Source: an uncultured Bacteroidales bacterium
Lineage (GTDB): Bacteria; Bacteroidota; Bacteroidia; Bacteroidales; WCHB1-69
Direction: 5' to 3'
DNA: 53,588 nt
Assembly: GCA_900319925.1 (NCBI GenBank)
Contig: ONQE01000013.1
Coordinates: 1-53,588 of the forward strand
A program made the translations under genes and the position numbers. The notes beneath the pieces were generated by a model. It ran no database searches. It saw only the letters and a program-made list of their open reading frames with translations, and was not told where the DNA came from. Of the stretch, positions 8,951-37,202 are shown piece after piece (the first letter of the stretch is position 1; each line of letters begins with the position of its first letter).

Positions 8951-9405
8951 AGAAGATCCGGATTCTCTTTGTGTGCCACGGCAACATCTGCCGCAGTCCT
9001 ATGGCCGAGTTCGTGATGAAGCAGAAGGTGGCCGAGCGGGGACTCTCCGCGCAGTTCGAGATTGCCTCTGCCGCGACGAGCCGCGAGGAGATCGGCAACC
9101 CCGTCTATCCGCCGGCCCGCAGGATGCTGGCGTCGCACGGCATCTCCTGCGCCGGCAAGACCGCCCGCCAGATGACCCGCGCCGACTACGACTATTACGA
9201 CTACATCATCATTATGGACCAGAACAATCGGCGGAACATCCAGCGCATTGTCGGGCAAGACTTGGACGGCAAGATTTCGCTGTTGATGGACTACACCGAC
9301 CACCCGCGAGACGTGGCCGACCCGTGGTACACCGGCGACTTCCAAGCCACCTGGGACGACGTGCAGGAGGGTTGCGATGGCTTGCTGTCGGCGATGGGGT
9401 GTTGA
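8947..9405 (+). CDS. Low-molecular-weight protein tyrosine phosphatase
   Basis: This 152-residue cytoplasmic enzyme has the N-terminal P-loop VCHGNICRS, a CX5R catalytic motif in which Cys is the nucleophile, and the downstream general-acid motif DPWYTGDF. Length and motif order are standard. Family members remove phosphate from protein tyrosines (or arginines) and in bacteria often act with capsule kinases; no tyrosine kinase gene is visible here. It overlaps the preceding small membrane protein by 4 bp. Confidence 0.93.
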   Translation: MKKIRILFVCHGNICRSPMAEFVMKQKVAERGLSAQFEIASAATSREEIGNPVYPPARRMLASHGISCAGKTARQMTRADYDYYDYIIIMDQNNRRNIQRIVGQDLDGKISLLMDYTDHPRDVADPWYTGDFQATWDDVQEGCDGLLSAMGC

Positions 9406-9406
9406 C

Positions 9407-9420
9407 TGCTCACCATTCAC
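9407..9420 (-). repeat. Two-unit remnant of a GTGAATG-type heptamer array
   Basis: TGCTCAC and CATTCAC (reverse complement GTGAATG GTGAGCA) begin one base after the phosphatase stop codon. The type matches the array at 6434. Confidence 0.5.
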
Positions 9421-9430
9421 TAAAAAAGTG

Positions 9431-9438
9431 TATCTTTG
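9431..9438 (+). promoter_or_regulatory. -7 element (TATCTTTG) for mrp
   Basis: GTATCTTTGCC is preceded by an A-run and lies 36 bases before ATG 9474. It is a near-perfect TAnnTTTG match. Confidence 0.75.
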
Positions 9439-9473
9439 CCGCTCAGATTCATATATAAAATATAGAAGAGAAT

Positions 9474-10295
9474 ATGAGCGAATGTAATCACAATTGTCAG
9501 GAATGCAGCCAGAAAGACTGCGGAAGCAGAGATTTGCACGAGAAACCGAATGCATTAAGCGATATCAAGAAAGTCATCGGCGTGGTGAGCGGCAAAGGCG
9601 GCGTGGGCAAAAGCTCCGTCACCTCGTTGTTAGCCGTGGCGTTGCGCCGCAAGGGCTACCGCGTGGGTATCCTCGACGCTGACGTCACCGGTCCCTCCAT
9701 CCCGAAAATGTTCAACCTCCACGAGATGGTGCGCGGCAGCGAGCAAGGTGTCTATCCCGCCGTTACCGAGACTGGCATTGAGGTGATTTCCAGCAACTTG
9801 TTGATTGCCGACGAGAAGTCGCCCGTGCTGTGGCGCGGTCCGCTGGTCGCTGGTATGGTGAAGCAGTTCTGGACCGATGTGATTTGGGAACACATTGATT
9901 TCCTGCTGATTGACATGCCTCCCGGAACCGGAGACGTGCCGTTGACCGTCTTCCAAACCATCACCCTCGACGGTATCCTGATGATCACCTCCCCGCAGGA
10001 GCTGGTCTCCCTCATCGTGAGCAAGGCCGTGAATATGGCCGGCATGATGAACATCCCCATTCTCGGCCTCATCGAGAACTACAGCTACATCACCTGTCCG
10101 CACTGCGGCGAAAAGATCTCCGTGTTCGGCAAGAGCAACGCTGAGGAGGTTGCCAAGGAGTTCAACATCAAGCTGTTGGATAGACTGCCCATCGATCCCG
10201 AGATGGCCACCCTCTGCGACCAAGGCCAAATTGAGAAAGTCAAGGAGACCCGCTTGGAGAATGTGCTGGATGTGCTGGAGAGCTTGGAAGCGTAA
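9474..10295 (+). CDS. mrp: Mrp/ApbC-type iron-sulfur cluster carrier ATPase
   Basis: The 273-residue protein has a deviant Walker A motif (GKGGVGKSS, about residues 42-50), the second motif ILDADVTGPSIPKMF and the third LIDMPPGTGD, all diagnostic of Mrp/NBP35 P-loop ATPases that carry and deliver 4Fe-4S clusters. The CxxC pair expected to bridge the dimer cluster is present (CPHCGEK). The extreme N-terminus adds four closely spaced cysteines (CX3CX2CX4C), a short version of the NBP35-like N-terminal cluster site and unlike the DUF59 front end of many bacterial homologues. Such a carrier suits a genome with the Fe-S-rich enzymes seen here. It has its own promoter and may run into thyA through a palindromic element. 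Confidence 0.92.
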   Translation: MSECNHNCQECSQKDCGSRDLHEKPNALSDIKKVIGVVSGKGGVGKSSVTSLLAVALRRKGYRVGILDADVTGPSIPKMFNLHEMVRGSEQGVYPAVTETGIEVISSNLLIADEKSPVLWRGPLVAGMVKQFWTDVIWEHIDFLLIDMPPGTGDVPLTVFQTITLDGILMITSPQELVSLIVSKAVNMAGMMNIPILGLIENYSYITCPHCGEKISVFGKSNAEEVAKEFNIKLLDRLPIDPEMATLCDQGQIEKVKETRLENVLDVLESLEA

Positions 10296-16310: not shown

Positions 16311-16378
16311 AGTTTTAAGGATTAAGGGTTAAAATCAATAGTCTTAAGTTTAATGTCAAACGTATTATTTTCTGGAGG

Positions 16379-16386
16379 CAAAAATA
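16379..16386 (-). promoter_or_regulatory. -7 element (TATTTTTG) for the DUF5618-like gene
   Basis: On the minus strand TTGTATTTTTGCC lies 68 bases before the start at 16310. Confidence 0.65.
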
Positions 16387-16460
16387 CAACAAAATAACAC
16401 ATTTGTCAAGGGTTTTGCGATTTTTTTATATCACTGAGAATCAGAAGATTGAAAAAATCA

Positions 16461-17089: not shown

Positions 17090-18883
17090 ATGGCAAGTTA
17101 CAAATACCACATTCTGCTCTGCGGCGGTACGGGATGTACGGCCTCGGAAAGCCCCAAAATCAGAGAAAATTTCAAACAAATCCTGGCGGAAAAGAACCTT
17201 TCCGACGATGTGCAGGTCGTGACCACCGGTTGCTTCGGCTTCTGCGAAAAAGGCCCCATCGTGAAGATTCTGCCCGACAACACTTTCTATACCCAGGTGA
17301 AGCCCGAAGACGCCCTCGAAATCGTCAACGAGCACATTATCAAAGGTAGAAAAGTGACCCGTCTGCTCTATGAGAACCCCGAGGACAAGGAGCACATCTC
17401 CGACTCCAAGCACATGGGTTTCTACAAGAAACAGATGCGTATCGCCCTGCGTAACTGCGGTTTCATCGATCCCGAGAACATCGACGAATACATCGCCCGC
17501 GACGGTTACAAGGCGTTGGCCAGCGTTCTGGAACAGCATGATCCCGCTGCCACCATCGACATCATCAAGAAGTCCGGTCTTCGCGGCCGCGGCGGCGCCG
17601 GCTTCCCCACCGGTTTGAAGTGGGAGCTCTGCGCCAAGAACGCTGCCGACCAGAAATACATCATCTGTAATGCTGACGAGGGTGACCCCGGCGCATTCAT
17701 GGATCGTTCCATCTTGGAAGGCGACCCGCACTCCATCATCGAGGCTATGGCCATCGGCGGCTTCTGTATCGGCGCCACCATCGGTCTGGTCTATATCCGC
17801 GCTGAGTACCCGCTGGCCATCCACCGCCTGCAAGTCGCTATCGACCAGGCCCGTGAGTACGGCCTCCTCGGCAAGAACATCTTCGGCACGGACTTCGATT
17901 TCGACATCATCCTCCGCTACGGTGCCGGCGCATTCGTTTGCGGTGAGGAGACCGCTCTGATCCACTCCATGGAAGGCCAGCGCGGTGAGCCCACCTTCAA
18001 ACCCCCGTTCCCGGCCGTTTCGGGTTACATGAAGAAACCCTCCAACGTGAACAACGTTGAGACCTACGCCAACATCCCCGTCATCATCAACAAGGGCTGG
18101 GAGTGGTTCTCCTCCATCGGCACGGAGAAATCCAAAGGCACGAAAGTGTTCGCTCTCGCCGGCCAGATCAACAACGTCGGTCTGATCGAGGTGCCTATGG
18201 GTATCACCCTTCGTGAGGTCATCTACGAAATCGGCGGTGGCATCAAGGGCGGCAAGAAGTTCAAAGCCGTGCAAACCGGCGGTCCTTCCGGCGGCTGCTT
18301 GACCGAGAAGTTCCTCGACACCCCGATCGACTACGACAACCTCGTGGCTGCCGGCTCCATGATGGGCTCCGGCGGTATGATCGTCATGGACGAGACCTCC
18401 TGCATGGTCTCCGTCGCCAAGTTCTACCTCGACTTCACCGTGGAGGAATCCTGCGGTAAGTGCACCCCGTGCCGTATCGGTAACAAGCGCCTGAGCGAAA
18501 TCCTCGGCCGCATTACCAAGGGTAACGGCACTATGGAAGACCTCGCCTTGCTGAAGAACCTCAGCCACGTCATTAAAGACACGGCACTCTGCGGCCTTGG
18601 TCAGACCTCCCCGAACCCCGTGTTGTCCACCATCGACAACTTCTGGGATGAATACGTGGCCCACGTCACCGAAAAGAAATGTCCCGCCGGACAATGCAAG
18701 GCCCTCAAACAGTATGTCATCGACGCTGAAAAATGTAAAGGTTGTACGGCTTGCGCCCGCAACTGCCCCGTCGGCGCCATCAAGGGCACCGTCAAGATGC
18801 CTCACGAAATCAACCAAGAGCTCTGTATCAAGTGCGGTACGTGTATTGAGAAATGTAAATTCGGTGCAATCAGTATTATTTAG
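17090..18883 (+). CDS. hydB: HydB: NuoF-like NADH/flavin subunit of trimeric [FeFe] hydrogenase
   Basis: The 597-residue protein has, in order: a thioredoxin-like 2Fe-2S domain (LCGGTGCTASES and TTGCFGFCEKGP), the NuoF core with FMN/NADH motifs (GLRGRGGAGFPTGLKWE, NADEGDPGAFMDRSILEGDP), a SLBB segment, the N3-type cluster motif ESCGKCTPCRIG, and a C-terminal two-cluster ferredoxin (CKGCTACARNCPVGAI and CIKCGTCIEKCKFGAI). This domain order is that of HydB in electron-bifurcating hydrogenases, which couple NAD(H) and ferredoxin to H2. It is 6-15 bp upstream of hydA, with the coupling expected of complex subunits. Whether this complex bifurcates cannot be told from sequence. Confidence 0.93.
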   Translation: MASYKYHILLCGGTGCTASESPKIRENFKQILAEKNLSDDVQVVTTGCFGFCEKGPIVKILPDNTFYTQVKPEDALEIVNEHIIKGRKVTRLLYENPEDKEHISDSKHMGFYKKQMRIALRNCGFIDPENIDEYIARDGYKALASVLEQHDPAATIDIIKKSGLRGRGGAGFPTGLKWELCAKNAADQKYIICNADEGDPGAFMDRSILEGDPHSIIEAMAIGGFCIGATIGLVYIRAEYPLAIHRLQVAIDQAREYGLLGKNIFGTDFDFDIILRYGAGAFVCGEETALIHSMEGQRGEPTFKPPFPAVSGYMKKPSNVNNVETYANIPVIINKGWEWFSSIGTEKSKGTKVFALAGQINNVGLIEVPMGITLREVIYEIGGGIKGGKKFKAVQTGGPSGGCLTEKFLDTPIDYDNLVAAGSMMGSGGMIVMDETSCMVSVAKFYLDFTVEESCGKCTPCRIGNKRLSEILGRITKGNGTMEDLALLKNLSHVIKDTALCGLGQTSPNPVLSTIDNFWDEYVAHVTEKKCPAGQCKALKQYVIDAEKCKGCTACARNCPVGAIKGTVKMPHEINQELCIKCGTCIEKCKFGAISII

Positions 18884-18898
18884 TCAAAGGTGAACAAT

Positions 18899-20686
18899 AT
18901 GGATACAATTAAATTAACAATAGACAATAGAGAAGTTGAAGTGCCGAAAGGTACTACGATTCTTAACGCCGCAAAGCAGCTGGGTATTTCCATTCCCACC
19001 CTTTGCCACTTTGAATTCAAGGGCATGGACGTCCACAACAAACCCGGTGGATGCCGTATCTGTGTCGTGGAGGTCGCCGGCCGTCGTAACCTGGCTCCCG
19101 CCTGCGTCACCGAATGTATGCCCGACATGGTGGTCCGCACCAACTCGATGCGCGTGATCAACGCCCGTCGCACGGTGCTCGAGCTCATGCTCTCCGACCA
19201 CCCGAATGACTGTCTGCAGTGCTCCAAGAGCGGCAAGTGCGAGCTTCAGGCTCTCGCCATCCGTTTCGGCATTCGCAGCAACCCGTTCGTCGGTCCCGAC
19301 CACGCACAATCCAGCTACCAGATCGAGGTTTCTCCCTCTATCATCCGCGACATGAACAAGTGCGTCATGTGCCGTCGTTGCGAAATGATGTGTAACGAGA
19401 TGCAGACCGTGGGTGCCCTCTCCGCCATCGAGCGCGGCTTCCCGGCAGTCGTCTCCACCGCTTTCAACCAGCACCTCGACCACTCACCCTGTACGTTCTG
19501 CGGCCAGTGCGTCGCCGTTTGTCCCGTGGGTGCTCTTACCGAAGTCGACAACACCGCCAAGGTCATCCGCGCCATCGTGGATCCCAGCAAGAAGACGGTT
19601 GTCCAAGTGGCTCCCGCCGTGCGTGTGGCTCTCGGTGAGGAATTCGGCATGAAGCCCGGCTCCATCGTGACTGGCAAGCTCACCGCCGCCCTCAAGGCCC
19701 TCGGCTTCGACTATGTGTTCGACACTGACTGGAGCGCCGACTTGACGATCATGGAAGAGGGTACCGAGCTTCTCGGCCGCCTCAAGAGATTCCTCGGTGG
19801 CGACAAGGATGTCAAGCTGCCTATCCTGACCTCCTGCTGCCCGGCATGGGTGAATTTCTTCGAGCACCAGTTCCCGGAACTGAAGGAACTGCCCTCCACC
19901 GCGAAGTCCCCGCAACAGATGTTCGGCGCCATGGCAAAGAGCTACTTCGCCGAGAAGATCAACTGCAAACGCGAAGACATGGTCTGCATCTCTGTGATGC
20001 CCTGCCTCGCCAAGAAGTACGAGTGCGGTCGTGACGAGTTCAAGGTGAACGGCAATCCTGATGTCGATTTCTCCATCACCACCCGCGAGCTGGCCGCCCT
20101 CATTAAACAGGCCAACATCGACTTCACGAAACTTCCCGAGGAAGAGTTCGACAGCCCGCTCGGCGAATCCACTGGCGCTGCCGTCATCTTCGGCACCACC
20201 GGCGGCGTGATCGAGGCTGCTGTGCGTACCGCCTACGAAGTCTATACCGGAAAACAGTGTCCGAAAATCGACTTCGAGGAACTGCGCGGTCTGGAAGGCA
20301 TCCGTTCCGCCACCATCGACTTCGACGGCCTGCCGATCAATATCGGTATCGCCCACGGTTTGAAGAACGCCCGTAAGCTGCTCGAAGACATCAAGGCTGG
20401 CAAGTGCAACTTCCACGCTATCGAGATTATGGCTTGCCCCGGCGGTTGTATCGACGGCGGTGGTCAACCTCTGCACCACGGCAACGGCGATATCATCAAA
20501 GCCCGTTGGGAAGCTATCTATCAAGCAGACAAGGAAATGCCGATCCGTAAATCCCACGAGAACCCGTCCATCCAAACTCTCTACAAGGAATATCTGGGCG
20601 AGCCGTGCGGCCACAAATCGCATGAACTGTTGCACACCCACTATTTCGACAGACAAACGACCGTTGAAGTGGATTTGAACAAATAA
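18899..20686 (+). CDS. hydA: HydA: catalytic [FeFe] hydrogenase subunit
   Basis: The protein has an N-terminal 2Fe-2S domain (VEVPKGTTILNAA, GGCRICVVEV), the His-Cys 4Fe-4S motif (HPNDCLQCSKSGKCELQ), a two-cluster ferredoxin (CVMCRRCEMMC, CTFCGQCVAVCPVGAL) and the H-cluster domain with all three signatures: L1 TSCCPAWVNFF, L2 MPCLAKKYECGR and L3 MACPGGCIDGGGQP. All H-cluster cysteines are present, so it should be active, making or oxidising H2. The start is placed at ATG 18899 because an AAAGG lies 8 bases before it; a GTG three codons upstream is the alternative. HydEFG maturation genes are not in the window. It lacks an extra C-terminal 2Fe-2S domain. Confidence 0.95.
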   Translation: MDTIKLTIDNREVEVPKGTTILNAAKQLGISIPTLCHFEFKGMDVHNKPGGCRICVVEVAGRRNLAPACVTECMPDMVVRTNSMRVINARRTVLELMLSDHPNDCLQCSKSGKCELQALAIRFGIRSNPFVGPDHAQSSYQIEVSPSIIRDMNKCVMCRRCEMMCNEMQTVGALSAIERGFPAVVSTAFNQHLDHSPCTFCGQCVAVCPVGALTEVDNTAKVIRAIVDPSKKTVVQVAPAVRVALGEEFGMKPGSIVTGKLTAALKALGFDYVFDTDWSADLTIMEEGTELLGRLKRFLGGDKDVKLPILTSCCPAWVNFFEHQFPELKELPSTAKSPQQMFGAMAKSYFAEKINCKREDMVCISVMPCLAKKYECGRDEFKVNGNPDVDFSITTRELAALIKQANIDFTKLPEEEFDSPLGESTGAAVIFGTTGGVIEAAVRTAYEVYTGKQCPKIDFEELRGLEGIRSATIDFDGLPINIGIAHGLKNARKLLEDIKAGKCNFHAIEIMACPGGCIDGGGQPLHHGNGDIIKARWEAIYQADKEMPIRKSHENPSIQTLYKEYLGEPCGHKSHELLHTHYFDRQTTVEVDLNK

Positions 20687-20726
20687 TTCTGTTTCAGTAT
20701 TCATCAATAATTAAAAAAACACCATT

Positions 20727-21224
20727 ATGGATAAGATAATTATCAAAATGAAAAAGGAAGTCAGCGACAAGATTATTGAGATCTGCGACAGATTCAATAA
20801 TGCTCCTGGCGAATTGATTAACGTTTTGCACCAGACGCAGGATTTCCTGGGTTACCTTCCCGCTGAGGCCCAGGAGCTGATCGCCGAGCGTCTGCACATC
20901 CCCACCGCCAAGGTTTATGGCGTTGTCTCCTTCTACTCCTTCTTCACCATGCAGCCGAAGGGTAAATACCCGGTGTCTGTGTGTATGGGTACGGCTTGCT
21001 ACGTGCGCGGTGCCGAGAAGATTCTGGATGCGTTCGAGAAAGAGCTGGGCATCATGCCCGGTGAAACGGACAAAGCCGGTCTCTTCTCCCTCACCTCCCT
21101 GCGTTGCGTCGGTGCCTGCGGTCTTGCCCCCGTGGCTTTGGTTGACGGCAAGGTCTTCGGCCGCCTCGCTCCCGCGAACGTGAAGAGCATCGTGAACGAG
21201 TACAGAGAGATGGATAAACAATAA
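20727..21224 (+). CDS. hydC: HydC: NuoE-like [2Fe-2S] subunit of the hydrogenase
   Basis: The 165-residue protein matches NuoE/HydC: helical N-terminus with HQTQDFLGYLPAEAQELIA, then the thioredoxin-like 2Fe-2S domain with CMGTACYVRGAEKIL and RCVGACGLAPVALVDG (CX4C and CX3C ligands). In the complex it lies next to HydB and passes electrons to or from the FMN. Here it closes the operon after hydA, whereas it often comes first in related operons. A strong terminator follows 22 bp later. Confidence 0.92.
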   Translation: MDKIIIKMKKEVSDKIIEICDRFNNAPGELINVLHQTQDFLGYLPAEAQELIAERLHIPTAKVYGVVSFYSFFTMQPKGKYPVSVCMGTACYVRGAEKILDAFEKELGIMPGETDKAGLFSLTSLRCVGACGLAPVALVDGKVFGRLAPANVKSIVNEYREMDKQ

Positions 21225-25979: not shown

Positions 25980-25987
25980 TACCTTTG
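25980..25987 (+). promoter_or_regulatory. -7 element (TACCTTTG) for the HdrD-like gene
   Basis: An A-run then GCTACCTTTGCACC, 24 bases before ATG 26012. It excludes the upstream in-frame TTG at 25985 as a start. Confidence 0.75.
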
Positions 25988-26011
25988 CACCCTGAATCAA
26001 AACGAGCGAAT

Positions 26012-27304
26012 ATGAAAGAGATTTCCCCCGATAGCAAACGGAAAGCCATTGATATCCTGACCAAATTCACCGACAGCAAATTACTCACGCACCTCAACGC
26101 CTGCGTGCATTGCGGGTTGTGCGAGACCAGCTGTCTGTTTTTCAAGACATTCCAGGAACCGAAATACATACCTGGGAAGAAGGTCGATATGGTGTCTTCG
26201 ATTTATCGTCGTTACTGCACCTTTTTGGGCAAAACTGCGCCTAAATTGACGAATGCCAAGGAGTTGACGGATGATTATATTGCGGAGATGGTGGATTCGC
26301 TGTATGGTGCCTGCACGATGTGCGGTCGTTGCGTGAAGCACTGCTCCATCGGGGTCGATATCCCGTTCGTGGTGCGCACGGGTCGCCGGATGCTGGCTGC
26401 CATGGACTGTGTGCCCGCCTCGCTGCAGGCCACCGTCGATGCCGCCCTCAATACCAAGAACAACATGGCCATCCCCAAGGAGGATTTTGTGGATACGATC
26501 GATTGGATGCAGGAGGAACTGCAGGACGAGCTGGAAACGGAGGAGACTTTGATCCCGCTTAACAAGGAGACTGCGGAGATTCTCTACACGTTGAATCCTC
26601 GTGAGCCGAAGTTTTTCCCGCTCTCCATCGCCGCCGCCGCCAAGATCTTTCACGTGGCCGGCGCCGACTGGACGCTCTCCGACGAAATGTACGATGTGAC
26701 CAACTACGGCTATTTCTCTGGCAACGATGCGCACGCCAAGCAAATCGCGCAGCACATGTACGACGAGATGGCGAAGCTGAAATGCAAAACGTTGGTGTTG
26801 GGTGAGTGCGGACACGGCACGCGCGCTCTTCGGTGGGAAGCACCCAACTATATGGGACAACATCCTGATTTTAAGATGATTTCGCTCGTGGAGCTGATTG
26901 AAGATTACATCAAATCCGGAAAAATAAAGCTGGACAAAACCTTAAACACGAAAAAATACACGATTCACGATCCGTGTAACATTGTGCGTAATGGAGGGTT
27001 GTTCAATTCGTTGCGTTATGTGGTGAAGCAGGCGGTGCCGGAACTGATCGAGATGGATCCGTTTGGTAGCGACAATTTCTGCTGCGGTGGCGGCGGTGGT
27101 ATGTTGGCCATGAGCGAATTCAATGAACGTCGCCTGAAGATTGGCAAAATCAAGGCCGACCAAATCAAGGCGACGGGTGCTTCTGTGGTTATTACGCCGT
27201 GCCACAACTGCGCTGACCAGCTTACGCAGATCAACCACGAGTATAAGCTCGGTGTGGAGATTAAATCCGTGGCTGAGGTCGTGGCCGATGCGATAGTGCT
27301 ATAA
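26012..27304 (+). CDS. HdrD/DsrK-like iron-sulfur protein (CCG-domain reductase)
   Basis: The 430-residue protein has two N-terminal 4Fe-4S motifs (CVHCGLCETSC and CTMCGRCVKHC) followed by two CCG domains: the first reads LGECGHGTR, the second DPCNIVRNGG and NFCCGGGGGM, with CHNCADQL near the end. This architecture is that of HdrD, GlpC, TmcB and DsrK. In DsrMK and Hdr complexes the second CCG domain holds a special 4Fe-4S cluster that reduces a disulfide such as that of DsrC. The first CCG domain lacks a paired CC, as in several DsrK-like proteins. A DsrC and a DsrM-like membrane protein are encoded 9-10 kb away (36109, 36555) and are good candidate partners. It appears to be a single-gene unit with its own promoter. 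Confidence 0.85.
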   Translation: MKEISPDSKRKAIDILTKFTDSKLLTHLNACVHCGLCETSCLFFKTFQEPKYIPGKKVDMVSSIYRRYCTFLGKTAPKLTNAKELTDDYIAEMVDSLYGACTMCGRCVKHCSIGVDIPFVVRTGRRMLAAMDCVPASLQATVDAALNTKNNMAIPKEDFVDTIDWMQEELQDELETEETLIPLNKETAEILYTLNPREPKFFPLSIAAAAKIFHVAGADWTLSDEMYDVTNYGYFSGNDAHAKQIAQHMYDEMAKLKCKTLVLGECGHGTRALRWEAPNYMGQHPDFKMISLVELIEDYIKSGKIKLDKTLNTKKYTIHDPCNIVRNGGLFNSLRYVVKQAVPELIEMDPFGSDNFCCGGGGGMLAMSEFNERRLKIGKIKADQIKATGASVVITPCHNCADQLTQINHEYKLGVEIKSVAEVVADAIVL

Positions 27305-33830: not shown

Positions 33831-34100
33831 CTATTTTCTCAGACCTAATTCCTTAATGAGGGCTCTGTAGCGCTCGATGTCTTGCTCTTTGAGGTATTCG
33901 AGCATTTTTTTGCGCTTGCCGACCAGCGTGATAAGGGCGCGTTTGGTGACCCGGTCGCCGCGGTTCTCTTTCACGTGTTCGGTCAGGTGTTTGATGCGGT
34001 GCGTAAACAGGGCGACTTGAGCCTCCGGAGAACCGGTGTCATGCTCGTTCTTGCCGTATTTCGCGAAAATCTCTTTCTTAACGTCGTTTGTCAAATACAT
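33831..34100 (-). CDS. rpsO: Ribosomal protein S15
   Basis: The 89-residue protein is full length, with the S15 motifs GSPEAQVALFTHRIKHLTEH and the C-terminal KMLEYLKEQDIERYRALI helix. It binds 16S rRNA in the 30S platform. It is the first gene of the rpsO-pnp unit. Confidence 0.97.
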   Translation of the reverse strand: MYLTNDVKKEIFAKYGKNEHDTGSPEAQVALFTHRIKHLTEHVKENRGDRVTKRALITLVGKRKKMLEYLKEQDIERYRALIKELGLRK

Positions 34101-34281: not shown

Positions 34282-34348
34282 AAGAGGTTTCTATCGCTTT
34301 CAAACGGTTGATATATAAATGAATACAAAAAAAGTTTAAAAACCTCTT
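34282..34348 (+). repeat. Short inverted repeat upstream of the peptide-maturase operon
   Basis: AAGAGGTTT (34282-34290) and AAACCTCTT (34340-34348), 49 bases apart; the right arm overlaps the -33 TTG. In the gap 34101-34420 I see only this, the rpsO promoter and the peptide promoter; the rest is plain AT-rich sequence. Confidence 0.4.
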
Positions 34349-34377
34349 GACAAAGGCGTTTTCAGGTTGTATCTTTG
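34347..34377 (+). promoter_or_regulatory. Full Bacteroidetes promoter for the peptide-radical SAM operon
   Basis: TTG at 34347-34349 (TTGACA) and TATCTTTG at 34370-34377 are separated by 20 bases, the expected -33/-7 spacing. It predicts a leader of about 40 bases before the small ORF at 34421. Confidence 0.8.
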
Positions 34378-34420
34378 CCCTTGAAAAAACAGAATAAAAA
34401 CAATCTGAAAAACGAACAAA

Positions 34421-34534
34421 ATGAACAAAATGAATCTTTCCAAAAGCATCGGCAAGCTTCTTGATTCCATGAGGCAATCCGTGAAAAACAATGTGCAAAC
34501 CCCTTTGAACGCTATCCGCTTATGCAAACAGTAG
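34421..34534 (+). CDS. Candidate RiPP precursor peptide (37 residues)
   Basis: An ATG-started frame of 37 codons follows a strong promoter and an A-rich leader. It starts MNKMNLSKSIGKLL, has an amphipathic helical middle (residues 5-25) and ends TPLNAIRLCKQ with a single Cys three residues from the end. Its last 13 bases overlap the start of a radical SAM gene in another frame, so translation is probably coupled. Size, position and the maturase with a PqqD-like front domain suggest a leader-core peptide. I do not recognise the peptide family, it has no GG leader motif, and no exporter or protease gene is adjacent. It could instead be a regulatory leader peptide. Confidence 0.55.
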   Translation: MNKMNLSKSIGKLLDSMRQSVKNNVQTPLNAIRLCKQ

Positions 34535-36027
34535 ATGTCAATGTCAAGTATGTGGTCAACCCGGCTTACAAGTTCAAGGACGACCGGTGGAATGTGGTGA
34601 TTACCAACAACAACCCGGGCCGTTACGATTCCGACCGACGCCGTGACGATATCACCACCTCGTTTGTGTGGCGCACGCACCCCGATTTGGCGTACCTGTT
34701 CGGCTATTTCGACGGTGCCCGCACACTGGACGAGACCGCGAGCCTCTTTGCAGAGCGGGAAGGTGTGAGCAAGGAACGGTTCTTGGAGTCCGTGCGCCCC
34801 TGCATCTGCAACCGAGACCCGATCCTGATCCCCGCATACGAACGGCACTGGGTCTCCATCCCGAAGAACTTCCTGATCCCGAACCACGCCGGCATCGTGC
34901 GCGACAATCTCCTCCAAGGCATCGACCTTCCCTTTATCCGTGAGCACTTCGATCTGACGGAGGTGCGATTGCGCGTGCCCAACAGCATGACGCTGATGCT
35001 CAACACCGACTGCGCGACCGACTGCATCTATTGCTATGCCGACAGGCCACGCATCCTGCAGCCGATCTCCTTCAACCGGATCAAGGAACTGCTCAAGGAG
35101 GCATACGATTTGGAGATGCCCGATGTGGATGTGGACGGCGGCGACCTCTTCCTGTATCGGGATTGGCGGAAACTGCTCGATGAGATGCGCCGGTACGACT
35201 ACGTGCCCAACATCTCGACCAAATATCCCCTTACGCAAAGCATGGTGGACGACTTGAGGAGTCTGGGAATCCGCCGTATCCAGCTCTCCATCGACAGTGT
35301 GGACAATGCGGAGATGCAGCAGATGCTGTATGTGGGCGAGGAGTACCTTGGGAAAGTCCTTTGCGGTCTCCGGCTGTTGGACGAGGCCGGCATAGAAGTC
35401 ACCGTGAAACCTGTCATCACGCGGTTCAACGATTCCGAGAAATCCGTGAACGCCTTGATTGACACGCTGACGGCGTTTGGCAGCGTCAGGCGGATCGACT
35501 TCACGCCGGCCGGTTTCAGCCGGTTCAAGCCCCCCGTCTATTACAGCACCTTGGAACAGCTGGATCGGTTGAGAACTGTTGTGGAACATCGGAACAGGGA
35601 TTGCCCGGCTGATCTGACCTTTGCCGGATGTGAGGAGCCGAAGAGTGTCGGGCAACGATGCGAAGACTGGGAACAGCGGGCAATGTGTACGGGCAATGTG
35701 CACGGCTTCTTCGTCCTCCCCGACGGCAAAGCGACCCTTTGCGAGCAGCTCTACTGGCATCCTTTCTTCATTATGGGCGACCTGAGACGGCAGTCCATCA
35801 TGGAAATGTGGAATTCGGAGAAGGCATTGTCGCTGTGGAACATCTCCCGGGGCGAGGTGCGGAGCGCGAGCCCGTGCCGGATGTGCTTCCGGTTTGAGGA
35901 GTGCCGACGCGGGTTGGGAAACTGCTGGCGCAAAGCGGTTTCGGCGTATGGTCCTGAAAACTACGACTTTCCGTCGCCCGACTGCCCGAAGGCGCCACCC
36001 GTCACAAAGGACTACTACCTTATGTGA
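34522..36027 (+). CDS. Radical SAM/SPASM peptide maturase with PqqD-like domain
   Basis: The 501-residue protein has an N-terminal region of about 100 residues (VNPAYKFKDDRWNVVITN, FGYFDGARTLDETASLF) that resembles PqqD, the domain that binds RiPP leader peptides. The radical SAM core has the CX3CX2C cluster motif at Cys164, 168 and 171 (TDCATDCIYCYADRP), DGGDLFL and SIDSVDNAEM. The C-terminus is SPASM-like: Cys at 389 (AMCTGN), KATLCEQLYWH, then CRMCFRFEECRRGLGNC and a late DCP, enough for auxiliary 4Fe-4S clusters. Such enzymes form C-C, thioether or other links in peptides. The gene overlaps the 37-codon ORF by 13 bp. The exact family and modification are unknown. Confidence 0.85.
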   Translation: MQTVDVNVKYVVNPAYKFKDDRWNVVITNNNPGRYDSDRRRDDITTSFVWRTHPDLAYLFGYFDGARTLDETASLFAEREGVSKERFLESVRPCICNRDPILIPAYERHWVSIPKNFLIPNHAGIVRDNLLQGIDLPFIREHFDLTEVRLRVPNSMTLMLNTDCATDCIYCYADRPRILQPISFNRIKELLKEAYDLEMPDVDVDGGDLFLYRDWRKLLDEMRRYDYVPNISTKYPLTQSMVDDLRSLGIRRIQLSIDSVDNAEMQQMLYVGEEYLGKVLCGLRLLDEAGIEVTVKPVITRFNDSEKSVNALIDTLTAFGSVRRIDFTPAGFSRFKPPVYYSTLEQLDRLRTVVEHRNRDCPADLTFAGCEEPKSVGQRCEDWEQRAMCTGNVHGFFVLPDGKATLCEQLYWHPFFIMGDLRRQSIMEMWNSEKALSLWNISRGEVRSASPCRMCFRFEECRRGLGNCWRKAVSAYGPENYDFPSPDCPKAPPVTKDYYLM

Positions 36028-36108: not shown

Positions 36109-36426
36109 ATGGCAAATATTGAATTCAATAACAAGACCTACGAGATGGACGGCGACGGCTTCATGGTCCATCCTGAAGAGTGGAACAAGGAACTGGCCGC
36201 GGAGATTGCCAAGGCCGACGGCATCACGGAGATGACGGAGAACCATTGGAAAATCGTGGATTGCATCCGTGCCAACTACGAGGAAAAGGGCATCGCCCCG
36301 ATGGTCCGCACCATCTGCAAGACCGCCAACCTGAAGCTGAAGGACATCTACGAGCTCTTCCCGCTCGGCCCCGCAAGAGGCGCCTGCCGCGTCGCCGGTC
36401 TCCCGAAACCCGAAGGCTGCGTATAG
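36109..36426 (+). CDS. dsrC: DsrC/TusE family sulfur-carrier protein with both redox cysteines
   Basis: The 105-residue protein matches DsrC over its length: DGDGFMVHPEEWNKELA, TENHWKIVDCIRANYEEKGIAP and the flexible C-terminal arm GPARGACRVAGLPKPEGCV. It has both arm cysteines, Cys93 and Cys104, in the CX10C spacing of true DsrC; TusE proteins for tRNA thiolation keep only the last. In sulfate reducers DsrC carries sulfite sulfur as a trisulfide that the DsrMK membrane complex reduces. No dsrAB is in the window. A DsrM-like gene follows 128 bp downstream and an HdrD/DsrK-like gene is at 26012. The radical SAM gene ends 81 bp upstream, but dsrC has its own promoter. Confidence 0.92.
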   Translation: MANIEFNNKTYEMDGDGFMVHPEEWNKELAAEIAKADGITEMTENHWKIVDCIRANYEEKGIAPMVRTICKTANLKLKDIYELFPLGPARGACRVAGLPKPEGCV

Positions 36427-36430
36427 TAGG

Positions 36431-36550
36431 TTAAGGTTTAAGGTTTATAGTTTAAGGTTTATGGTTTAACACTTGATTCCCTAACCCCTTAAACCTTAAA
36501 CCTTAAACCATTAATCCTCTAACCCTTTAACCTTAAACCTTAAACCATTT
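36431..36550 (+). repeat. Inverted pair of heptamer arrays between dsrC and the DsrM-like gene
   Basis: TTAAGGT-type units (36431-36470) are followed by ACCTTAA-type units (36487-36550), the reverse complement. A 17-base perfect inverted repeat (36431-36447 with 36490-36506) could form a long hairpin between the two genes. The last unit ends 6 bases before ATG 36555. Confidence 0.9.
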
Positions 36551-36554
36551 TACT

Positions 36555-37202
36555 ATGAGTGTTTTACAGTATATCGCGATAGTCGCGGCGGTTTATTGCC
36601 TCGTTAGTTTATTCGTGCATTTCGTCAGGGTTGTGCGCCTCGGTGCCCCGAAAGACAAGTCGGAGCCCAGCGGCAGCGTGAAGGAGGGGGTGGTCTATGC
36701 CAACACCATCGCCATGATGCCCAATCAGAAAGAGTCGGCGTACCTGCATCTGCCGTCCTACGCCACGGGAATGCTGTTCCACATCGGTCTCTTCTGCTGT
36801 CTGCTCTTCTTTGTGCTCTCCTTCTTCCCCTTCTTCAACAACTGGATTGGCGGCTGCAACTGGCATTATGTGCTGGCCATCCCGACCGCCTTAGGCACCG
36901 TCTGTGGCATCATCCTCTTCATCAGAAGACTGGTTTCCAAGGATTTGAAGCCCTTCACCATGCCCGACGACTACATCTCTTGCGGCTTAGTGACCCTTTT
37001 CCAGCTGATGACGACGCTCTACCTGTGCTGCTCGACCTGCTGCGGATCTGTTACCATATTATATTATATAAGCAGCATCCTGCTGTTCCTCTACATGCCC
37101 CTCGGCAAACTCCGCCACGCGGTCTATTATTTCGCGGCGCGCTATCATCTGGGGTTCTTCTACGGATGGCGGAATGTGTGGCCGAACAGGGAGAAGGAAT
37201 AA
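36555..37202 (+). CDS. DsrM/TmcC-like membrane cytochrome b subunit
   Basis: A 215-residue inner-membrane protein with about five or six helices. The sequence LPSYATGMLFHIGLF, the central HYVLAIPTALGTV and a C-terminal KLRHAVYYFAARYHLGFFYGWR end match the NarI-like membrane subunits of DsrM, HmcE and TmcC, in which helix histidines ligate haem b and exchange electrons with menaquinol. The likely soluble partner is an HdrD/DsrK-like protein, present at 26012 but not adjacent. dsrC lies upstream, the same functional grouping as DsrC-DsrMK. The family match rests on motif pattern; haem content is inferred. Confidence 0.75.
   Translation: MSVLQYIAIVAAVYCLVSLFVHFVRVVRLGAPKDKSEPSGSVKEGVVYANTIAMMPNQKESAYLHLPSYATGMLFHIGLFCCLLFFVLSFFPFFNNWIGGCNWHYVLAIPTALGTVCGIILFIRRLVSKDLKPFTMPDDYISCGLVTLFQLMTTLYLCCSTCCGSVTILYYISSILLFLYMPLGKLRHAVYYFAARYHLGFFYGWRNVWPNREKE

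Follow-up and report, generated by a model that had tools for sequence, protein, structure and literature searches.

The window analysed here, a stretch of 53,588 nt from a Bacteroidales bacterium whose relatives are of ruminant gut origin, carries a gene predicted to encode a radical SAM/SPASM peptide maturase, located between rpsO and a dsrC/tusE-like gene and preceded by a promoter and a short ORF that runs into its start. The features of the locus are the following (coordinates in the window):

33831..34100, minus strand: rpsO, a backbone gene and the left edge of the insertion site (from locus comparison)
34346..34378, plus strand: Bacteroidota-type promoter (TTG, 20 nt, TATCTTTG), upstream of the 37-codon ORF
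34421..34534, plus strand: 37-codon ORF, probably what remains of the leader of a Cys-rich RiPP precursor of the GG type, without its core
34522..34534, plus strand: 13-bp overlap between the end of the short ORF and the start of the maturase, which forces a Cys codon, TGC, from ATGCAA
34522..36027, plus strand: putative radical SAM/SPASM peptide maturase, 501 aa (Pfam, alignments, fold)
34522..34875, plus strand: PqqD/RRE-like N-terminal domain, residues 1-118 (predicted fold; omega 0.103)
35011..35034, plus strand: CxxxCxxC radical SAM motif, C164, C168 and C171 (alignment)
35686..35886, plus strand: SPASM domain, residues 389-455, with further conserved Cys at 461, 468 and 488 (Pfam, alignment)
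36109..36426, plus strand: dsrC/tusE-like gene, backbone, right edge of the insertion site (PF04358, 4e-36)

The elements described in the initial annotation are all present, i.e. the promoter, the 37-codon ORF with a single Cys near its C-terminus, and the 13-bp overlap with the radical SAM gene in a different frame. The promoter consists of a TTG at 34347, then 20 nt, then TATCTTTG at 34370-34377; a simple promoter scan of the same region returns TTGACA-17-TATCTT (10/12). This 33-bp motif has a single exact match in the window and, when up to three mismatches are allowed, one extra site at 16378-16410 on the minus strand, with none in 100 shuffles. The short ORF would be reduced to 34 codons by a start at its second in-frame ATG. 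Since there is no ATG, GTG or TTG in the maturase frame between the start and the upstream stop, the overlap is real and does not result from a start-site error. By itself it is weak evidence, because of 30 further ORFs of the window that were counted as genes, one is also overlapped by an upstream ORF of at least 30 codons. However, it seems to be more than chance, since an ORF 54% identical to that of the window occupies the same position in G013, the closest relative. The single Cys, at the third position from the end of the peptide, is an out-of-frame reading of the ATG-CAA (Met-Gln) start of the maturase and is thus a by-product of the overlap. The 37-aa ORF contains neither a GG nor a Cys-rich core, and a search of the whole window for the GG/Cys pattern gave seven ORFs, none of them adjoining the maturase and one of them inside it in another frame. 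A chance-like parallel to the overlap is found at the start of a ParA/ApbC-like gene (9474), which is overlapped out of frame by a 36-codon ORF (9377-9487). A possible RNA element in the 5′ region was also considered; the sole Rfam match up to E 0.1 was CrcZ, at 19 bits against a gathering threshold of 95, and was taken as chance.

The proposal that the enzyme is a RiPP-type radical SAM/SPASM maturase is borne out by its domains, its Cys sets and its predicted fold. Pfam recognizes PF04055 (1.9e-10) and PF13186 (6.2e-9). C164, C168 and C171, together with seven Cys of the SPASM region, are invariant among 17 aligned sequences; in a 72-sequence alignment, C164 and C171 are invariant and C168 is found in at least 90%. 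The latter took in 71 of the 79 relatives fetched (see below), five broken or partial sequences having been dropped along with the near-copies L166 and L168 and with L155, a record from another phylum (similar records were retained). The AlphaFold model derived from the 72 sequences has a mean pLDDT of 93.7, and its best matches among solved structures include SuiB, SkfB, PqqE and CteB: SuiB (5v1s) aligns over nearly the full length (494 columns, E 3.8e-18), with SkfB (6efn) and CteB (5why) next. A PqqD-like front domain had been suggested as well, with modelling as the way to check it. For residues 1-118, folded from 48 sequences, the top match is PqqD (5sxy, probability 0.94), and ThcOx comes at ranks 2-4, TbiB1 at 6-7 and SkfB at 17; these matches are weak, with E-values of 0.12 or worse and unrelated proteins (GdmN, a methyltransferase and others) interleaved, and the Pfam PqqD model gives no match to the maturase at E 1. 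RRE domains are carried by ThcOx and SkfB. The predicted model of the domain has three strands and three helices in this order, with extra strands between and after, which agrees with the bbb-aaa definition of the RRE given in PMC12710340. It thus looks PqqD/RRE-like, as judged from a fold match with weak E-values.

The enzyme falls into none of the characterized subfamilies for which a curated NCBIfam equivalog exists (PqqE, mycofactocin, WgkB and others), as far as the matches listed go: its best score is 51.9 bits as compared to a cut-off of 381 for PqqE (25 of 43 matches listed). Likewise, no equivalog was passed by five relatives among the 25 matches listed for each, and the SPASM domain model TIGR04085 was passed by four of the five.

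Relatives were collected by scanning the contigs of GTDB-220 genomes, and 79 loci were fetched from the best 80 of 141 matches. Eight of these are the rpsO-dsrC locus. In 55 of the 71 others, an ORF adjoining the maturase, 40-110 codons long, has at least two Cys after a GG-type motif, as against 2/71 on the reverse strand and 6/37 at a distance of 4 kb on both strands. Among the 16 loci without a match in this census, L134, L142 and L156 have an ORF that resembles a precursor by eye; chance matches are possible, and one match, antisense and downstream in L099, is spurious. A C39-type ABC protein, recognized by motif, is present in 37 of the 71 loci, and in 18 of the 31 that have full 7-kb flanks. 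From these two kinds of neighbours it would follow that the genes of this family serve to make Cys-bearing peptides with a GG leader, for which a peptidase exporter is often present, a pattern that matches the GG-leader precursors with radical SAM enzymes and peptidase exporters described for Bacteroidales in PMC10352776. In five loci (L130, L139, L157, L107 and L108) there are two or three GG/Cys precursor-like ORFs per maturase, and those within L130 and within L157 are near-identical to each other. Six relatives (L129, L132, L149, L155, L166 and L170) come from records titled Aminicenantes, Lachnospiraceae, Alphaproteobacteria or Anaerolineae, which reflects either transfer beyond Bacteroidota or mis-binned contigs.

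Within the genus, the maturase is found in nine of 40 genomes, the window's own (G000) included, and in all nine it is located between rpsO and dsrC (in G007, across two contigs). The DsrC gene is present in 35 of the 40, and three genomes, G014, G020 and G006, have an empty site where rpsO directly adjoins dsrC. Among the maturase-bearing loci, identity to the window is 64-77% for the maturase, about 92-95% for pnp (in G017 the pnp match splits into two pieces, at 99% and 78%) and 98-99% for DsrC. The rpsO-dsrC maturases form a single clade with a support of 100, separate from the second copies that belong to full clusters in G017 and G013, and in the backbone tree the empty-site genomes lie outside the maturase-bearing clade with supports of 71-87. 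The constant site, the empty sites, the identities and the single clade fit one insertion followed by vertical descent, which we infer from the trees. The placement of G063 in the maturase tree has a support of only 43-48, so that the number of precursor losses is uncertain and G063 may have gained its precursor later. Full-length maturase ORFs are found in eight of the nine genomes; the exception is G007, where the gene spans the two contigs and is interrupted in frame by a TAG near residue 465; this copy may be broken, or the TAG may be a sequencing error. In G017, the last residues are replaced.

Several other features of this region deserve mention. In G013, the interval between the maturase and dsrC is occupied by a 172-aa ORF and by two others, of 449 and 481 aa, that look ATPase-like by eye (L043:7355-11834); an ORF of 183 aa related to that of 172 aa (MARILQVGI...) is found in G017 (L045:6919-8331), where it is flanked by TAAACCCTAAACTC-like repeat arrays. 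The rpsO-dsrC gap looks like an insertion hot spot. A phage or plasmid origin was considered and rejected, as no phage record was found at 1e-10 and there was one distant match only, at 29%, to a Paenibacillus plasmid. On the other side, a 215-aa membrane-like protein follows the DsrC-like gene (together 36109-37202 in the window) in every mapped dsrC locus that reaches far enough.

What precedes the maturase varies markedly among the nine loci. A Cys-rich precursor is present in one (G063), an ORF of the 37-aa type in two (the window and G013) and neither of them in six. The order in G063 is promoter, 87-aa ORF, 86-aa Cys-rich GG precursor and maturase, and a stretch of 52 residues after the maturase resembles a partner gene of the G017 cluster (36.5%, E 7e-5), which fits a decayed cassette. 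The ORF of G013, of 36 aa, is the sole homologue seen of that of the window. In G012 and G017, the promoter is followed by the maturase, and in four genomes the maturase bears an in-frame N-terminal addition, of a few residues (MKKN-like) in G003, G002 and G007 and of about 25 in G009. Promoters of the same shape, in altered form, precede the maturase at other rpsO-dsrC loci, with TTATTTTTG in G003, G002 and G007 and TAACTTTG in G017; that of G063 sits farther upstream, ahead of the 87-aa ORF. A conserved small ORF had been expected beside the homologues of the maturase: this holds in the wider family, with its 55 loci out of 71, but not at the rpsO-dsrC locus, where it is found in two genomes out of nine. 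The view that the 37-aa ORF is a precursor endowed with a core found no support, since seven of the nine orthologous loci keep the maturase without it.

What the short ORF of the window and its G013 homologue do resemble is a precursor leader, up to an LxxM motif beyond which they diverge. When compared with six leaders, the window ORF was equalled by 35 of 5000 shuffles, the G013 ORF by 1/5000 and the G009 extension by 86/5000. The likeness is weaker by profile HMM, where the window ORF, aligned over another stretch, is equalled by 75 of 2000 shuffles and the G013 ORF by 7/2000. Against single leaders the window ORF gives p-values of 0.03-0.25, and its second half matches nothing. The 87-aa ORF of G063 (L047:7130-7390), which belongs to no known family and had nothing beyond noise (E 0.35-0.48) among the fetched loci, was also tried as a source of the short ORF. 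For G013, the leader is clearly better (0/1000 shuffles against the G063 leader, p 0.144 against the 87-aa ORF); the window ORF alone remains compatible with this unrelated ORF (p 0.058), and when the scores against all six leaders are summed, the leader comes out ahead for both ORFs (p 0.009 for the window, 0/1000 for G013). With moderate confidence, from these sequence comparisons, we thus regard the 37-codon ORF as a probable leader remnant that has lost its core.

The maturases that stand without a precursor are under strong purifying selection, leader-binding domain included. Codon-based maximum likelihood gives an omega of 0.112 for the seven full-length precursor-less genes (G007 and G063 left out) and of 0.094 for those of the window, G013, G012 and G017, with values of 0.032, 0.019, 0.131 and 0.085 for the yardstick genes pnp, mbl, rfbD and m215, respectively. 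The RRE (0.103) and the remainder of the protein (0.110) hardly differ. For the window-G013 pair, the Nei-Gojobori dN/dS is 0.137 at a dS of about 1; as neither of the two loci has a core, selection has probably operated in this pair since the core was lost.

The other component that is missing is the exporter. As stated in the initial annotation, there is none beside the maturase: no peptide exporter was detected among the 23 window proteins scanned, and no C39-type exporter by motif in the eight fetched rpsO-dsrC loci, six of which extend at least 4.1 kb on both sides. Two hallmarks of the clusters of this family, a core-bearing precursor and an exporter, are thus absent from the locus. Across the nine genomes, a model of seven precursors (A3) detects the known ones of G063 (E 2.6e-32), G017 (6e-26) and G013 (2e-12), all three of which are among its build rows; it finds nothing in G000, G002 and G007 and gives chance-level matches in G012 (E 0.65), G003 (0.04) and G009 (0.04). 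A leader-only model (A6) behaves likewise; the G000 and G013 sequences that it matches strongly are rows from which it was built. Both models would fail to detect a precursor whose leader is unrelated. The GG-motif model TIGR01847 matched in none of the nine genomes, but it missed the three known precursors too and is therefore uninformative. These absences, and those of C39 proteins, are provisional, the drafts searched being 82-97% complete; this applies to G000 in particular, which is 87% complete and in 252 contigs. G013 and G017 each have another cluster elsewhere in the genome, complete and with its precursor, so that these two have a possible trans substrate.

As to export, the drafts of G012, G003, G002 and G063 contain no PF03412 (C39) match; G000 and G007 each have one C39 protein, of the same kind, G009 has another, and G013 and G017 have those of their own clusters. 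The single C39 protein of the window's genome is on another contig, within an export cassette (L091:946-8927) made of STAS-like, adaptor, C39 ABC, second ABC, second adaptor and outer-membrane-factor-like genes, of which the C39 domain alone was scored and the others were assigned by eye. We take this cassette to be NHLP-like. No precursor was seen near it in the first 2.3 kb.

The explanation that we favour, and consider probable without being strongly committed to it, is that of a cassette that entered once and lost its core and exporter, with the maturase retained for a substrate in trans. A GG-leader Cys-rich precursor and the RRE/radical SAM/SPASM maturase, probably with partners, would have inserted once at the rpsO-dsrC junction of an ancestor from which a subclade of the genus descends. 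The exporter would have been lost, and the precursor removed by what look like several different deletions; in the window, only a piece of the leader would remain, as the 37-codon ORF. The maturase has stayed intact, promoter-driven and under purifying selection, its leader-binding domain included, and this makes action on a leader-bearing peptide made elsewhere in the cell its most likely role. By analogy with the family enzymes, it should act as they do on this putative substrate, and we infer, as to the type of bond, a radical chemistry on a Cys-containing sequence. The 37-codon ORF would today probably do no more than bring ribosomes to the overlapping maturase start, i.e. provide translational coupling.

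At this point other possibilities have to be considered. One is that the 37-aa peptide is a working minimal precursor, its leader-like front being bound and its C-terminal QTPxNAxRxCKQ modified by the enzyme, with a product that stays in the cell. This would be in line with the common promoter and the tight overlap, with the RRE being under selection, and with the G013 homologue, which keeps QTP-NA outside the overlap. The signs of selection on the 37 codons are divided: the Nei-Gojobori ratio of the two ORFs before the overlap is 0.38 (Fisher p 0.053 on rounded counts) and drops to 0.18 (p 0.0025) for codons 12-33, but this stretch was chosen after looking, and conservation of residues is not above random placement of the substitutions (16 of 31 identical versus a mean of 15.3, P 0.44; 0.30 in the reverse direction). 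Given, in addition, that the ORF is confined to two loci, has no GG and no Cys-rich core, and owes its Cys to the start codons of the maturase, we regard this possibility as unlikely. The idea of a two-gene RiPP locus with a precursor of unfamiliar type is thus partly supported: its RiPP-type maturase stands, and the two-gene reading as a whole, though possible, is the weaker one. Another possibility, to which we give a similarly low probability, is that the maturase is a relic in the course of being lost, with a signal of selection that mostly predates the loss of the precursor. In its favour, most copies stand without precursor and exporter, the maturase has diverged far more than pnp and DsrC, and the G007 copy has its in-frame TAG. 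But the ORFs are full-length in all the other bearers with the catalytic Cys kept, omega is similar to that of rfbD and m215, and the window-G013 pair, in which both loci are core-less, has a low dN/dS.

The neighbour itself could be thought of as the substrate, as the two genes adjoin in the window and several relatives and DsrC ends with a Cys-bearing tail, a C-terminal arm that the enzyme would modify. This we consider highly improbable and have rejected. DsrC is far more widespread in the genus than the maturase; it is as conserved in three close empty-site genomes (99%) as in the maturase-bearing loci, and is at 80-84% in six more distant genomes devoid of the maturase. Moreover, the distance from the maturase to dsrC is 4.5 kb in G013 and 1.2-1.4 kb in G063 and G017, and DsrC was found in nine of the 96 loci searched, all of them rpsO-dsrC and none from the other relatives. 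Their adjacency is accounted for by the insertion site. Finally, the enzyme might have become uncoupled from any leader on its substrate, a core-less leader (window, G013) or a fused one (G009) activating the RRE enzyme for a leaderless peptide or protein; we view this as quite doubtful. If true, it would mean that a RiPP maturase has turned into an ordinary intracellular modifying enzyme. A model is provided by the engineered ThurKC, a leader-fused and constitutively active RiPP enzyme with precedents in LctM and YcaO (PMC10604976). The G009 maturase, with its leader-like in-frame extension, is similar in design, but the former are laboratory constructs of other enzyme classes, while the G009 extension is natural and known from its sequence alone.

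Returning to the reading that we prefer, the retained maturase can be compared with known systems. Bacteroidales have GG-motif rSAM + PCAT RiPP clusters, e.g. the rSAM-only BGC2 of Phocaeicola vulgatus, as described in PMC10352776, and the family resembles them in that the radical SAM enzyme is accompanied by GG-leader precursors and by ABC exporters with a peptidase domain. P. vulgatus ATCC 8482 has a homologue (L134) in a cluster of this type, with a C39-motif ABC protein at -3626 and, at -181, a precursor that carries GG and two Cys. The window differs from these clusters in having a lone enzyme in a housekeeping neighbourhood, with no precursor core, exporter or partner genes. SuiB (the streptide enzyme), SkfB and CteB begin with a leader-binding domain and have the same domain order as the window maturase, at 14-18% identity, a likeness seen in sequence and fold alone. 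These three enzymes adjoin their own precursors.

Orphan maturases of this kind are easily set aside in genome mining, since no precursor adjoins them, and the matches listed in a full-text literature search (mostly without subscription journals) included no description of the locus or of members of this family that lack a precursor. The series of loci described here, from the empty site through a full precursor, a leader remnant and a leader stub to no leader at all, with selection measured, suggests that a maturase can be kept by selection after the loss of its cis precursor and exporter. It offers a concrete and testable case of RiPP maturases that act in trans or are taken over for another use, and the G063 precursor provides a matched substrate for finding the chemistry of the family.

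Two further observations concern the window outside this locus. NuoF-like, [FeFe]-hydrogenase and NuoE-like genes lie in tandem at 17090-21221, a set presumably of the electron-bifurcating hydrogenase type, and a gene for a CCG/4Fe-4S protein is found at 25985-27304.
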